The notes beneath the pieces were generated by a model, which saw only the letters and a list, made by a program, of their open reading frames with translations, did no database searches and was not told the origin of the DNA. Both the position numbers and the translations under genes were made by a program. From NCBI GenBank assembly GCA_905233565.1, contig CAJOCL010000004.1, forward strand, positions 1 through 64,000: a stretch of 64,000 nucleotides of DNA, read 5' to 3'. The DNA is from an uncultured Synergistales bacterium (GTDB lineage Bacteria; Synergistota; Synergistia; Synergistales; Aminobacteriaceae). How positions within the stretch are numbered: the first letter of the stretch is position 1; every line of letters starts with the position of its first letter. Positions 40,733-46,610 of this stretch are shown piece after piece.

Positions 40733-41515
40733 ATGAAGACTTACAATCTGAGGGCGGTACTGTCCGACAAGTGCAATTACTCCTGTGTTTTCTGCTCACA
40801 TGATTTCAACAGGAGCGTTAATCTTGATATTGCTCCCGATTTCCTGAAAGAATGCGTAAAAGTCTTTGCTTCTCTTGGCGGAAAAAAAGTTACTTACACG
40901 GGCGGAGAGCCTTTAATATATCCTGCACTCTATGAAATTATGAGGCTTGCAAAATCTCTCGGCCTCAAAAATTCAATAACAACTAACGGTTCAATGATTT
41001 CAAGGCAGACTGAAGAGTTTTACGGGCTTGCAGACGCTCTGAATATTTCAATACCTTCATTTGAGCCGGAAATTTATAAAAAATTGACAGGTTCAAAAAT
41101 TCCGCTTGAAATCATAAAAGAAAATGCCCTGAAAGCCTCTGAACACGGGCTGAAAGTCAAAATAAACACCGTTTATACGCGTCAAAATGAAAAGATGATT
41201 AACATGATGATCGATTTCTTTTCGCCTCACGGAATAGTCATAAAGTTAATGAATGACATGATAGCCGGTGAAGATTATTACATTGAATTTCTTAAGTTTG
41301 CCGAAAAATTCAGGTGCGATTCACGGGTTGAGATTGAGAGCGGAAAGAATCCGGGATTAGAAATCTGCCGCAGCTGTAAAATCCCTCACCCTACAGGCTG
41401 TCCCTCTTGCCGTTCAATATGGGTATACCCTGACAAAAGAATAACTTTATGCCCGTTCGATAACACGGGATACGATGATATATTTAGTCAAATTTCAAAG
41501 TTAATGAAATCATAG
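40733..41515 (+). CDS. Radical SAM protein, MoaA-like, with C-terminal cysteines
   Basis: The 260-residue protein has the radical SAM cysteines Cys14, Cys18 and Cys21 in CNYSCVFC, the GGEPL motif (VTYTGGEPLIYPAL) and TTNGSMI. Near the C-terminus are CRSCKIPHPTGCPSC and RITLCPF, which could bind a further cluster. It resembles MoaA-type and other small rSAM enzymes but lies far from any molybdopterin gene. As the first enzyme gene of the operon it may modify the peptides encoded downstream, or a protein or nucleotide; the target is unknown. Confidence 0.78.
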   Translation: MKTYNLRAVLSDKCNYSCVFCSHDFNRSVNLDIAPDFLKECVKVFASLGGKKVTYTGGEPLIYPALYEIMRLAKSLGLKNSITTNGSMISRQTEEFYGLADALNISIPSFEPEIYKKLTGSKIPLEIIKENALKASEHGLKVKINTVYTRQNEKMINMMIDFFSPHGIVIKLMNDMIAGEDYYIEFLKFAEKFRCDSRVEIESGKNPGLEICRSCKIPHPTGCPSCRSIWVYPDKRITLCPFDNTGYDDIFSQISKLMKS

Positions 41516-42605: not shown

Positions 42606-42995
42606 ATGTCAAAAGAAATTCAAAGCATTGATGATATTGACCCCAAGTATTCAAAGGATTACTCAGAAGATTCTTTCTGGGACAAAATCAAAACCGTACT
42701 CAAAAAAGCAGGTCTGCCGTTAATCTACAAGGCACTTCAGCTTTATTACGTCATGCAGAGGCCGGATTGTCCGGCAGGAATAAAAGCGGCAATAATCGTA
42801 ACGCTTGGATATTTCATTTCGCCGATTGATTTCATACCTGACTTTATTCCCATTGTCGGCTTCACTGATGATCTTGCTGCGGTTGTTGCTGCCTTAGTAA
42901 TGGCTCAGATGTATGTTGATGAAAAGGTAAAGCGTCAGGCCCGTGAGGCGATTGACAGGATTTTCGGCGCAGGAACTTCAGACGAGCTTGATTAA
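42606..42995 (+). CDS. DUF1232 (YkvA-type) membrane protein
   Basis: The 129-residue protein contains the DUF1232 core AAIIVTLGYFISPIDFIPDF, a membrane-associated stretch near residues 60-79, followed by GFTDDLAAVVAAL and a charged tail. The domain is widespread but has no agreed function. The gene lies 60 bases after the kinase-like gene, with its stop overlapping the start of the YkgJ-like gene (TAATG), which indicates coupling. Confidence 0.8.
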   Translation: MSKEIQSIDDIDPKYSKDYSEDSFWDKIKTVLKKAGLPLIYKALQLYYVMQRPDCPAGIKAAIIVTLGYFISPIDFIPDFIPIVGFTDDLAAVVAALVMAQMYVDEKVKRQAREAIDRIFGAGTSDELD

Positions 42996-43276
42996 TGTTT
43001 GAGTGCAGAAAGTGCGGAAAATGCTGTACACTCTTCAGGTTTTTCCCGGAAGACAGCGAAATACGCCTCGCACTCGACAGCGGCGACGGGACATGCAGAT
43101 ATTTCGACAGGGAGTCAAGGCTATGCAAAATCTACGGCTCCCGTCCGATAATCTGCAATCACTCAAAGTATTATGACGAATGCTTAAAGGACAGTATGAC
43201 GCGTGAAGAGTTTGAAAATTTTTTGAATGTTTTCTGTGAAAAGATAAGGAATGATGATTTTGAAGGATTGGGTTAA
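42995..43276 (+). CDS. YkgJ-family cysteine-cluster protein
   Basis: The 93-residue protein begins FECRKCGKCCTLF; cysteines at 4, 7, 10 and 11 and later in CRYFDRESRLCKIYGSRPIIC match the YkgJ family, thought to bind zinc or an iron-sulfur cluster. Its last 26 bases overlap the start of the downstream rSAM/SPASM gene, a tight coupling that suggests the two proteins work together, for instance cluster supply. This is inference. Confidence 0.8.
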   Translation: MFECRKCGKCCTLFRFFPEDSEIRLALDSGDGTCRYFDRESRLCKIYGSRPIICNHSKYYDECLKDSMTREEFENFLNVFCEKIRNDDFEGLG

Positions 43277-44306
43277 AATTAATTTCCTCAAAGACAAAAA
43301 GACCGCTGAAGATGAGGCAAAACACATTAAAATGCTCATAGAAAGTTACCTTTACCCCGACAGGTTTACTATGCCGCTGACATTGCAGTTTGAATTGACT
43401 TCACACTGTAACGTTCACTGCAAACACTGTTATAACGTTTCAGGGGAAAATAATTCAAAGCCTGACCCTATGACCCCTGAAAAATGGAAAGATTTTTCGC
43501 GCTATATCGTCAGTCACGGCGGGATATTTCAGTGCATTATTTCAGGCGGTGAACCGCTGCTGCTGGGTGATAATTTATTTGAAATTATGGATATTCTGCA
43601 CGATGACGGCACGGCCTTTCTGGTAATCTCAAACGGTCTTTTAATGACAAGCGAAAAGGCAAAGCGTTTCACGAAATACCGTTACAAATGGTTTCAGGTC
43701 TCAATCGACGGCGTAACAAGTGAACGTCATGACACTTTCAGGCAGAGGCAGGGAAGCTGGGACGCGGCAGTTAAAGCCGTATTCATGCTCACGAACAACG
43801 GAATACCCGTAACAGTTGCACATACTGTAACGCCCGAAAATCTTAACGAGGTTGATTCAATGTGTTCACTTGCTTATGAACTTGGAGCATCAGGGATAAT
43901 TCTCGGTGAAGTAATGCCGAGCGGAAGAAGCTGGCTTAACCCTGAAATTTTAATGAACCGTGAACAGCGCAATATTCTCAACGAGTTAATAACATTGAAT
44001 GTTCAGAAATATTCGGGGCGGATGTCAGTTCAGAGAAGTTCGGGAACAAAAATACAGCTCATGCGCGGAATGAATACCCCGACCAGCGGCGCAATTATAA
44101 GGCCGAACGGTGATATAAGGCTTGACTGCGTTGCTCCGTTCGTTATCGGGAATGTTATTGATAATGATTTTTATGAAGTCTGGAACTCAAAGGCTCATGA
44201 CGCTTGGAAAAGATCGGAAGTGTTAGAATACATTAACTCATGGGAGAATGAAGACGAAATTAATCACGGTCTGAAAAATTATTTTGATTCTGACGTGAGA
44301 TTATAG
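43251..44306 (+). CDS. Radical SAM peptide-modifying enzyme with a reduced SPASM-like end
   Basis: The 351-residue protein has the radical SAM cysteines Cys53, Cys57 and Cys60 (SHCNVHCKHCYNV), SGGEPLL and VSIDGVTSERHDTFR, all typical of RiPP-maturing SPASM proteins. The C-terminal part keeps the SPASM frame IRPNGDIRLDCVAPFVIGNV but only one of the usual auxiliary-cluster cysteines (near 293). It is followed after 15 bases by a small peptide gene and then a PqqD-like gene, the classic enzyme-substrate-leader-binding set. It probably acts on the neighbouring peptides. Confidence 0.82.
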   Translation: MMILKDWVKINFLKDKKTAEDEAKHIKMLIESYLYPDRFTMPLTLQFELTSHCNVHCKHCYNVSGENNSKPDPMTPEKWKDFSRYIVSHGGIFQCIISGGEPLLLGDNLFEIMDILHDDGTAFLVISNGLLMTSEKAKRFTKYRYKWFQVSIDGVTSERHDTFRQRQGSWDAAVKAVFMLTNNGIPVTVAHTVTPENLNEVDSMCSLAYELGASGIILGEVMPSGRSWLNPEILMNREQRNILNELITLNVQKYSGRMSVQRSSGTKIQLMRGMNTPTSGAIIRPNGDIRLDCVAPFVIGNVIDNDFYEVWNSKAHDAWKRSEVLEYINSWENEDEINHGLKNYFDSDVRL

Positions 44307-44321
44307 GAGGAACGTACTGGT

Positions 44322-44525
44322 ATGAAAGAATATAAAAAGCCTGAGGTCATTAACAGCACGGGAGACAGGGGAAGGGCTTTCCCCGCAATAGGTCTGGCAC
44401 TTATTGGGGGATATGCCGCAGCCAGACTTGCAACGTCAGCAGTAAACGCCGTTACAAATGCACTTGAAGGCAACGTAACATCTGTTGAGAGCCTCCCGGT
44501 TATTGATGCTGTTTTCGAGGAGTGA
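44322..44525 (+). CDS. Putative RiPP precursor peptide 1
   Basis: A 67-residue peptide with a charged start MKEYKKPEVINSTGDRGR, a Gly/Ala-rich hydrophobic middle (FPAIGLALIGGYAAARLATS and onward to about residue 48) and a polar, acidic end (SLPVIDAVFEE). The YxxPxV leader element recalls leader motifs bound by RiPP recognition elements. The second small gene at 44843 has the same design. Position right after the radical SAM gene and before the PqqD-like gene supports a precursor role. The modified residues cannot be predicted; there is no cysteine. A good AGGAGG stands before the ATG. Confidence 0.65.
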   Translation: MKEYKKPEVINSTGDRGRAFPAIGLALIGGYAAARLATSAVNAVTNALEGNVTSVESLPVIDAVFEE

Positions 44526-44529
44526 ATAA

Positions 44530-44838
44530 ATGAATATTGCTTTTAACATGATGATGAATTATATTCCCGTTCATAACGCTTTGAAAGTAAGAAAAAACGG
44601 TGAATTTTTGATAGCCTCAAACCGTAACTGCGAAATATATTATCTCAACGAAATAGCAGGGGAAATGTGGAATATTATTGACGGTCATAAAACTGTTGAA
44701 GATGTCTGCAATAAAATTTTTTCCGAATATAACGTTGAACGCGGAAAACTCGAAAGCGATGTAGTAAACTTCATACGCGACATGCAATGGAAAAAGTTAA
44801 TACGTCTGAAAATATCAAAATCAAAACAGGAGGATTAA
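44530..44838 (+). CDS. PqqD-like protein (stand-alone RiPP recognition element)
   Basis: The 102-residue protein has the PqqD layout: NGEFLIASNRNCEIYYLNEI, AGEMWNIIDGHKTVEDVCNK, and a wing-helix ending DMQWKKLIRL. PqqD-like proteins bind the leader of a precursor and hand it to a radical SAM enzyme. It sits between the two peptide genes, four bases from each, so it is likely to serve both. Confidence 0.85.
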   Translation: MNIAFNMMMNYIPVHNALKVRKNGEFLIASNRNCEIYYLNEIAGEMWNIIDGHKTVEDVCNKIFSEYNVERGKLESDVVNFIRDMQWKKLIRLKISKSKQED

Positions 44839-44842
44839 TATC

Positions 44843-45037
44843 ATGAAAGAATACGTTACCCCGTCAGTTACGGGACATAATGAAAACAGCTTCCTTGCTC
44901 CTGCAATGGCTGTTATCGGATTGAGCAAGGCTGCGGCTTTTGCTGTAGGGGCTGCTGCCGGTCTCGTTGCAGCGGCTTTGAGCGGTGATAAGAGCGTTAC
45001 AAGCGGTGCTGCAGGACTTGAGCCCTGCTTAGAATAA
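44843..45037 (+). CDS. Putative RiPP precursor peptide 2
   Basis: A 64-residue peptide with leader MKEYVTPSVTGHNEN, a long Gly/Ala-rich hydrophobic core (FLAPAMAVIGLSKAAAFAVG to about residue 46) and a polar end, SVTSGAAGLEPCLE, with a single cysteine. It shares MKEYxxPxV and an AL-x-G-x-x-(S)VTS element with peptide 1. Its stop overlaps the next start (TAATG), so the LRAT-like enzyme is translated with it. The lack of a double-glycine cleavage site and of a neighbouring exporter argues against an ordinary class II bacteriocin. Confidence 0.65.
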   Translation: MKEYVTPSVTGHNENSFLAPAMAVIGLSKAAAFAVGAAAGLVAAALSGDKSVTSGAAGLEPCLE

Positions 45038-45585
45038 TGAAAAATAACATATTACTGCCTCTACTCCTCGCAGCAGGGGCAGCCAATAACAATCACAAAA
45101 ATAATCATAAGATAAAGCCTCAAAACGGCGATGTCCTGCGTGTAAATCGCGGTCTATATTCTCATTACGGCGTATACGCTGCGGATCTCAATCACGTTAT
45201 TCATTACACGGGAGCAACAGGCCCAGACGATTTTAACGGCATTGTCCGCGAGACATCTCTCGATGAGTTTTTGAACGGCTCAAAAAATTTCAATGTATGC
45301 CCGTTCCCTGAAAATCCCAATAATTTGCACCCCTCTTATTTGCCGAACAACAAAAAAGGCGGTCTCTTTGAGTTATGGCAGATAATAAAATCAGTAAGGC
45401 TTAAAGATTATCATTTATATTCAGGTGATGAGACAGTTGCACGCGCCCGCAGCAAATTAGGACAGGGCGGTTATAATCTTGCCCTCAACAACTGCGAACA
45501 TTTCGCCGTCTGGTGCAAAACGGGCGTTAAGGACTCATCACAGGTTAATCACGTTCTCGACATAATAACTTATCTTTTAAGCTGA
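45037..45585 (+). CDS. LRAT-domain (NlpC/P60-fold) cysteine enzyme
   Basis: The 182-residue protein has an Ala-rich hydrophobic start and then an LRAT domain: NGDVLRVNRGLYSHYGVYAA with His43, NHVIHYTG with a second His near 56, and NNCEHFAVWCKTG with the nucleophile Cys153. LRAT-like proteins are acyltransferases, phospholipases or thiol peptidases that go through an acyl-cysteine. In this operon it may acylate the peptides, cleave their leaders, or act on lipids; which is undetermined. It is coupled to peptide 2 by a one-base overlap and is followed two bases later by the WYL regulator. Confidence 0.8.
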   Translation: MKNNILLPLLLAAGAANNNHKNNHKIKPQNGDVLRVNRGLYSHYGVYAADLNHVIHYTGATGPDDFNGIVRETSLDEFLNGSKNFNVCPFPENPNNLHPSYLPNNKKGGLFELWQIIKSVRLKDYHLYSGDETVARARSKLGQGGYNLALNNCEHFAVWCKTGVKDSSQVNHVLDIITYLLS

Positions 45586-45587
45586 AA

Positions 45588-46610
45588 ATGGGACACGATA
45601 TATCTTCAATAAGAATAAGGCGGCTCCTGAAACTCGCTTCCTACCTCCGCAAAAAAGGCGAAAAAGGCGCGGAAGTTCCAGACATTCTGAATCACTGCGA
45701 ATATTCAAGCAGGCGCGCACTTCAGGACGATATAAGACTGTTAAAGGACGAATACAAAGCTGAAATTACGTATAAAAGAAGTTTCCCGAATCGTTACTGC
45801 ATGACTTATGAAGGCGAGTTCCTTTTGTCACTCAGCTTAAATATTGATGACATAAGCGCGCTGAGCATAGGTCTTGGAATGGCAAGCCATTTCGTACCCG
45901 ATTTCAAGAAACACTGCAAAAAATTGTGGCACAAAATCGCCGAGCTTGTTCCCGATTCATTCGTTACAATGGGCGAATGGCTCGCAGCTTTAACAACATT
46001 GCAGTACCCGGTTTCAGGGATAAAATCGTGGGTCTTTGAGACGGTCATTGAGGCAATACACGACCGTGAAGTCATTGAAATTGATTACGTTTCGCCTTAT
46101 AAGGACAGACAGAAAAAAACTCATAAAGTTTCGCCGTATGATATTTTTTTCAAGGCTCATTCATGGTACATGACGGCGGGCGAAAAGGGAATCGATGACA
46201 AAATTCTGATGTTCAAACTTTCAAGAATAAAGAAGATAAAAATTTCAGAAGATGATGAATTTCTGCCTCCTCCTGAAGATTATAACCCCGAAGTTTTCAG
46301 GGAATCTTCATGGTACGTAAAAGGCGGTCAGTTAAAATATGATATAAATCTCGAAGTCCGCGAACCTATGGCATCAATGATAAGCGAAATGAAAAGGCAC
46401 CCAACTCAGCGAATTTCAAGAATTGATGACGATACGGCAGAACTTTACGCCTGTGTCCCGGATCTTGAAGAGGCTGCAAGGTGGATATTATCATGTTCAC
46501 CGTACATAAAAGTAATAAGGCCTGAAGAGCTGCGCGCCCTTGTCCGTGAACTCGCTGAAAAAACTATCTCGCTAAATTCCAAGCAGGAAAATACAGCCTC
46601 AAGTGAGTAA
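45588..46610 (+). CDS. WYL-domain transcriptional regulator
   Basis: The 340-residue protein has an N-terminal winged HTH (RIRRLLKLASYLRKK and SSRRALQDDIRLLKDEY), a central helical region and a WYL domain (about residues 145-215, VIEIDYVSPYKDRQ, SPYDIFFKAHSWYMTAGEKG) followed by a WCX-like end (AARWILSCSPYIKVIRPEEL). WYL domains sense small ligands or nucleic acid. It closes the operon and is a paralog of the short HTH protein at its start, so it most likely regulates this locus. Its last 47 bases overlap the converging gene at 46564. Confidence 0.88.
   Translation: MGHDISSIRIRRLLKLASYLRKKGEKGAEVPDILNHCEYSSRRALQDDIRLLKDEYKAEITYKRSFPNRYCMTYEGEFLLSLSLNIDDISALSIGLGMASHFVPDFKKHCKKLWHKIAELVPDSFVTMGEWLAALTTLQYPVSGIKSWVFETVIEAIHDREVIEIDYVSPYKDRQKKTHKVSPYDIFFKAHSWYMTAGEKGIDDKILMFKLSRIKKIKISEDDEFLPPPEDYNPEVFRESSWYVKGGQLKYDINLEVREPMASMISEMKRHPTQRISRIDDDTAELYACVPDLEEAARWILSCSPYIKVIRPEELRALVRELAEKTISLNSKQENTASSE

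Follow-up and report, generated by a model that had tools for sequence, protein, structure and literature searches.

A recurring radical SAM, PqqD and CxxCxxCC cassette predicted to modify sets of short membrane-helix peptides, found beside a resident LRAT gene in Synergistota

In the 64,000-nucleotide window that we analyzed, from an uncultured Synergistales bacterium, lies a gene cassette for a radical SAM (rSAM) enzyme and two small proteins that assist it. Very probably the enzyme introduces an undescribed modification into short membrane-helix peptides, which are encoded in pairs or sets. The cassette is real and recurs in other genomes; it appears to be undescribed, although its general kind is familiar, and it pairs an unusual enzyme, poor in cluster ligands, with an unexpected CxxCxxCC protein. 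It combines a CX3CX2C rSAM enzyme, a PqqD protein in the same cluster and precursors with a conserved leader, and on these features we assign it to the predicted RRE-dependent rSAM RiPP systems. We consider it probable that the whole is a mobile cassette in which the rSAM, PqqD and CxxCxxCC proteins modify helical peptides by redox-neutral chemistry, and that it was inserted between genes for a YkvA-like protein and an LRAT-domain enzyme. What we say of peptide binding, modification and its chemistry, export and activity is predicted from the encoded sequences. The open-access literature yielded no description of this cassette class, and nothing on it in Selenomonas.

All genes of the locus lie on the forward strand. 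The five open reading frames (ORFs) of the original prediction were recovered at the positions given there: the rSAM maturase (351 aa; 43251 to 44306; PF04055 3e-24, SPASM 6e-5), precursor peptide 1 (67 aa; 44322 to 44525; aligned with 22 precursors from related loci), a stand-alone PqqD-type RRE (102 aa; 44530 to 44838; PF05402 1e-13), precursor peptide 2 (64 aa; 44843 to 45037; aligned with related-locus precursors) and the LRAT-domain enzyme (182 aa; 45037 to 45585; PF04970 1.6e-20). The tight packing described there also holds, with gaps of 15, 4 and 4 bases and a 1-base overlap between peptide 2 and the LRAT gene, and an AGGAGG can be read in the sequence 5′ of peptide 1 (44305 to 44310) and of peptide 2 (44828 to 44833). 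A sixth member was absent from that account, namely the gene for a 93-aa CxxCxxCC (YkgJ-like) protein (42995 to 43276; PF03692, Pfam 2e-6), which overlaps the start of the rSAM gene. The resident flanks encode the YkvA-like protein (named by resemblance; 42606 to 42995), which precedes the LRAT gene in cassette-free sites and has a possible accessory role, and a WYL/WCX transcription regulator (45588 to 46610; Pfam WYL 5e-14, WCX 1.5e-12), a possible regulator. Also present in the window is a second, MoaA-like radical SAM gene (40733 to 41515) accompanied by GreA-like and thymidylate-kinase-like genes; the same trio occurs in locus L030 (L030:7532-8323), where it sits between the peptides and the LRAT gene, and in L239, where it precedes the LRAT gene and the cassette is absent.

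The order CxxCxxCC, rSAM, peptide(s), PqqD, peptide(s) is common to three phyla. Orthologs of the rSAM (47 to 80% identity) occur in nine further genomes among the 188 Synergistota genomes searched, and one more (G057) has the peptides and PqqD where a contig ends, which with the window's own brings the Synergistota total to 11. A scan of genome contigs also found the cassette in Selenomonadaceae (50 to 54% identity) and, at 41%, in a single Planctomycetia genome. The 189 Selenomonadaceae genomes searched contain 19 close rSAMs; two more are of a variant type, and a further two are remote and have no peptides. The cassette is counted there in 19 to 21 of the 189. In the variant loci (L231 and L232) the peptides and PqqD come before the rSAM, with three near-identical peptides in L231. 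The remote rSAM-PqqD pairs (L233 and L234), which keep a cysteine matching C293 of the window's enzyme, were left uncounted, YxxP peptides not being found there, as was a Blautia rSAM (L056; 46% identity) that has a Cys-rich peptide and a second rSAM nearby and Gly in place of C293. This Blautia set (L056:6455-8930) is probably another RiPP type: a small Cys-rich ORF precedes two radical SAM genes, the second being the 46% identical one.

Transfer accounts for the three-phylum spread better than descent does. In the rSAM tree the Synergistota are split, with G034 standing apart from the window's genus, a pattern that is suggestive only, as the deep branches are long and their placement unsure. 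Base composition was uninformative about transfer (cassette 42.6% GC, window 44.2%), and no plasmid relatives were found at E 1e-30. The rSAM is broken in G053 (L037, two pieces) and G054 (L036, two stops), where peptides and PqqD remain, and the trait can therefore decay or be lost. A TerB-like gene (by resemblance) lies 3′ of the peptides in L051, L055, L219, L222 and L226, followed by a YkvA homologue in L055, L219 and L222, and HTH/XRE-like regulators are encoded upstream of Selenomonadaceae cassettes (L051:2811-3092, L054:1275-1652, L055:4490-4789 and L221:3439-3816). Four Selenomonadaceae loci have a YkvA homologue 3′ of the cassette; found alongside it in both phyla, YkvA may be accessory.

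As first noticed, both precursor ORFs of the window (64 to 67 residues) share one leader, of the form MKxYxxPxV: peptide 1 (MKEYKKPEV) runs on into a Gly/Ala-rich helix with GGYAAAR and then a C-terminal tail, and peptide 2 (MKEYVTPSV) into a Gly/Ala-rich helix with LEPCLE at its C terminus. Neither matches any Pfam or NCBIfam family. The prediction had been staked on related genomes keeping the small ORFs beside the enzymes, and this was found throughout, with YxxP peptides encoded at all 32 loci examined. In each Synergistota locus the small ORFs between or after rSAM and PqqD start with MKxYxxPx[VILM] or nearly so, and Tyr and Pro are kept in every row of a 23-peptide alignment from these loci. 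Among same-strand ORFs of 40 to 115 aa in the 32 related loci, YxxPx[VILMAFY] stands near the start of 86 of 171 beside the rSAM (one of these, L228_4942, being an evident chance ORF) versus 26 of 2,105 elsewhere (Fisher p 3e-83, odds ratio about 81). Differences at codon positions 1, 2 and 3 number 124, 101 and 239 over nine peptide pairs, a third-position excess typical of coding sequence, which points to translation of the ORFs.

Leaders are kept while cores vary in the cassettes of all three phyla, and it is this combination, along with the retained gene order, that bears out the original proposal of rSAM, PqqD and peptide as a RiPP cassette. The window's genus has two kinds of precursor: the first, 5′ of PqqD, contains a GGYAAGK-like helix, and the second, 3′ of PqqD, ends in LEPC[LIV][DE] or similar; GYAAGK-like motifs recur in Selenomonadaceae, and LEPC[LIV][DE]-type tails are also present in other genomes. 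Core tails follow lineage (LEPCLD in Synergistota, LTxRKxF in Selenomonadaceae), and because cores differ between lineages no single target residue is apparent. Cysteine is absent from 64 of the 86 cores and from window peptide 1. Gly-Gly pairs fall 77 times at separation 4 versus 20 at 3 and 39 at 5, and GxxxG is counted 75 times against 39.6 in shuffles (sd 5.8), an excess that is partly Gly/Ala clustering in loci that are related and thus non-independent. The maximal 19-residue hydropathy of the YxxP peptides has a median of 1.72, and this together with the GxxxG spacing suggests packed membrane helices. We note that two loci encode very Ala-rich YxxP peptides of unusual length (102 aa; L219:8275-8583 and L222:2923-3231).

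PqqD would be the protein that recognizes these leaders. A [Y/W]xxPx[L/V/I/A/F/Y] motif is bound by the discrete RREs of lasso peptide systems and also occurs in PQQ precursors (PMC13381572), and YxxP is listed among characterized recognition sequences (PMC12710340). The cassette's leader motif, YxxPx[VILMA], fits this consensus, and the PqqD protein itself has PDB matches to lasso TbiB1 (6e-7) and to PqqD (2e-5), with lasso_PqqD_Bac as its best NCBIfam match (7e-12, below cut-off). Because the motif fits the RRE consensus and the protein resembles lasso and PQQ RREs, there is a strong case that PqqD binds the MKxYxxPxV leader.

The rSAM enzyme resembles known peptide maturases in fold, with few of their cluster ligands. 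Its AF2 model (mean pLDDT 90.7) matches SkfB best (Z 27.4, rmsd 3.4, 277 residues aligned), followed by SuiB, anSME and others, and SkfB is also its best PDB sequence match (2e-31). Across all 30 rSAM members the CX3CX2C cysteines (C53, C57 and C60) and C293 are invariant, and no other cysteine is. C293, the one cluster-ligand cysteine kept in the SPASM/Twitch-like C-terminal region, would, by our reading of a profile alignment, pair with or adjoin SkfB Cys351. The SkfB auxiliary cluster is bound via Cys351, Cys385 and Cys387 (PMC6231123), and since C293 is the sole invariant cysteine outside CX3CX2C, the usual auxiliary-cluster ligands are mostly missing. One such cysteine combined with Cys-free cores in most peptides makes thioether formation or oxidative cross-linking unlikely, and our best guess is that the modification is most likely redox-neutral Cα chemistry. 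Proteusin epimerases work with the SAM cluster only and a catalytic Cys (PMC8326336). That L-to-D epimerization is itself the reaction here is a tentative suggestion, a possibility that we do not favor over all others together, and it is read from the missing cluster ligands and the one conserved cysteine. Non-Cys ligands, or a ligand from the partner protein, could also keep a cluster in place.

The CxxCxxCC protein would be the source of such a partner ligand and is a probable dedicated partner of the rSAM. All 21 sequences compared, drawn from three phyla, keep the same eight cysteines (C4, C7, C10, C11, C34, C44, C54 and C81), and the gene neighbors the rSAM in 28 of 30 main-type loci, having no nearby copy in L036 and L227. 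We would predict that the protein supplies a metal or cluster, transfers electrons or acts as a thiol relay. An alternative, oxidative reading has the rSAM perform C-C or ether cross-linking, decarboxylation or desaturation by means of an auxiliary cluster that the CxxCxxCC protein shares or provides, as a split SPASM. It would account for the near-constant presence of the eight-Cys protein and for the retention of C293 as the enzyme's only auxiliary ligand, and auxiliary clusters are reported to be essential for modification by SPASM C-C cross-linkers (PMC8326336). We nevertheless think it rather unlikely, for the CxxCxxCC model (AF2, pLDDT 92.8) found no Foldseek match in the PDB, no known cluster role was found for PF03692 proteins, and the gene is not nearby in L227 or in either variant locus (L231 and L232). 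The open-access literature likewise gave no tie between the CxxCxxCC/PF03692 family and rSAM RiPPs. Somewhat doubtful, too, is the view that these loci define a new RiPP class of membrane-helix peptide sets in which an rSAM without an auxiliary cluster of its own has that function supplied in trans by the CxxCxxCC protein. Redox-neutral chemistry remains our preferred reading.

The LRAT enzyme had been put forward as a dedicated second step of RiPP maturation, a proposal that we correct here. It is a regular family member, with catalytic H43, H56 and C153 invariant, the H-H-C set and NCEHF motif of the LRAT/PLAAT family, and matches to PLAAT structures (window gene, 45037 to 45585). Its spread is wider than that of the cassette: of the 188 Synergistota genomes, 37 gave an LRAT match (by hand tally, 33 of these belong to the window's genus of 43) versus 10 with an rSAM ortholog, and most LRAT-bearing Synergistota genomes lack the cassette. 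A genus-level block of YfdC, YkvA, LRAT, (WYL), 38k and CPBP genes, short names taken from the window's neighbors, exists without the cassette. YkvA is followed directly by LRAT in cassette-free L237, L238 and L243, with a WYL regulator 3′ of LRAT in L237, and YkvA is shortened or missing at related sites L240, L241 and L244; the window, L031, L032 and L033 have the cassette between the two. LRAT and the WYL regulator are thus part of an older syntenic block separable from the cassette. LRAT does not adjoin the cassettes of G051 and G034, whose rSAM is intact, or those of 18 of the 19 Selenomonadaceae loci. No LRAT match was found in G188, G189 and G193, three of the six cassette genomes outside Synergistota. 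On the wide spread, the cassette-free sites and the cassette genomes that lack it, we reject LRAT as a core enzyme and take it, for the most part, to be a gene that was at the site before the cassette. An N-terminal extension of LRAT was considered as a cassette-linked trait and dropped, since cassette-free genomes carry it too. In L242 (G047) LRAT and its 38k-CPBP flank lie beside Cas1- and Cas2-like ORFs (L135:127-1128, 1103-1411), another case in which the resident LRAT block has been rearranged.

That LRAT nonetheless works in the pathway, by acylation, deacylation or leader removal, and that the site is favored because LRAT and YkvA help, is in our judgment very unlikely. In the window the gene begins on the last base of peptide 2, it lies directly 3′ of the last peptide in three further genomes, its catalytic H/H/C are kept, and a divergent LRAT lies downstream in one Selenomonadaceae locus (L226), after the TerB-like gene. 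At genome level the two co-occur in the window's genus (LRAT in 10 of 10 cassette genomes versus 23 of 33 others, p 0.048) and in Selenomonadaceae (11 of 19 versus 45 of 170, p 0.007), a weakly positive association that ignores relatedness. Against this stand the YkvA-LRAT sites, LRAT-less cassette genomes and non-adjacent loci described above; LRAT may still have an accessory role. We found no pairing of LRAT with an rSAM RiPP in the open-access literature.

No exporter, protease or immunity gene was recognized near the cassettes. The original remark that the locus has no exporter stands insofar as no ABC ATPase with Walker A and SGG[QEM] lies within 5 kb at any of 32 loci, a result that reaches less far where contigs end, as they do at many of these loci. 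A leader peptidase was not found nearby either, and maturation would therefore need a peptidase and exporter encoded elsewhere. An unlikely alternative is that the YxxP proteins stay in the cell as regulators or small proteins of the membrane that the rSAM set makes or tunes, with no extracellular antibacterial or signaling use. The missing export, protease and immunity genes and the long hydrophobic stretches are what this reading would predict, but a fast-changing core behind a fixed leader, with several precursors per locus, is the usual sign of a secreted RiPP. Keeping to a secreted, modified product, we hypothesize that a horizontally moving cassette lands between resident YkvA and LRAT genes. 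PqqD would bind the MKxYxxPxV leaders of at least two small peptides and pass the peptides to the rSAM, which would reduce SAM and abstract hydrogen from hydrophobic Gly/Ala-rich core residues, with C293 as hydrogen donor if the outcome is L-to-D epimerization. The eight-Cys CxxCxxCC protein would be a metal or Fe-S partner, donate electrons or serve as a thiol relay, and the products would probably be membrane-active helices packed through GxxxG.

The carriers are rumen and other gut-type anaerobes in which the cassette is horizontally scattered, and, if our reading is right, such organisms share a further RiPP class across phylum boundaries. The unexplained CxxCxxCC (YkgJ) proteins would then have a function, and the cassette would serve as a natural test of what auxiliary Fe-S clusters contribute to rSAM peptide enzymes. 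If the CxxCxxCC protein does act in trans, this would be the first peptide-maturation role for that widespread family.

Each known system shares some of these features. PQQ biosynthesis (PqqA-PqqD-PqqE) has a stand-alone PqqD, a separate rSAM and a YxxP-type leader motif (PMC13381572), but the cassette rSAM lacks most auxiliary-cluster cysteines, and the cassette has several hydrophobic precursors per locus and a CxxCxxCC partner. Lasso peptides and linear polyphosphorylated peptides (LPP) likewise use a discrete RRE and a [Y/W]xxPx[LVIAFY] leader, and the cassette PqqD matches lasso RREs best, whereas its tailoring enzyme is an rSAM; neither a lasso B2 peptidase nor an asparagine-synthetase-like cyclase was found among the cassette genes or Pfam-scanned neighbors. 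SkfB, of the sactisynthases, is the rSAM's closest structural and sequence match in the PDB, yet its RRE is fused to the enzyme and it carries an auxiliary cluster. Sactipeptides and ranthipeptides need a donor Cys, which 64 of 86 cores lack, so that a thioether is not possible in those cores, and auxiliary ligands, for which the cassette enzyme offers C293 alone versus Cys351, Cys385 and Cys387 in SkfB (PMC6231123). PoyD-type proteusin epimerases have the SAM cluster only and one essential Cys (PMC8326336), to which C293 may correspond, and hydrophobic, Cys-poor cores are a further likeness to the epimerase systems of PoyD and EpeE. Unlike proteusins, the cassette has a discrete PqqD and no nitrile-hydratase-like leader; EpeE differs in carrying a second cluster, and the fold match to it (Z about 19.5) is not distinctive. 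Class IIb two-peptide bacteriocins consist of unmodified peptides with a double-glycine leader and a C39 ABC exporter; neither such a leader nor such an exporter was recognized with the cassette, many of whose contigs are cut. Class IIb bacteriocins and daptides resemble the cassette in having at least two hydrophobic helical peptides per locus with GxxxG spacing, and differ from it in that the cassette peptides are probably rSAM-modified and carry a YxxP-type leader.
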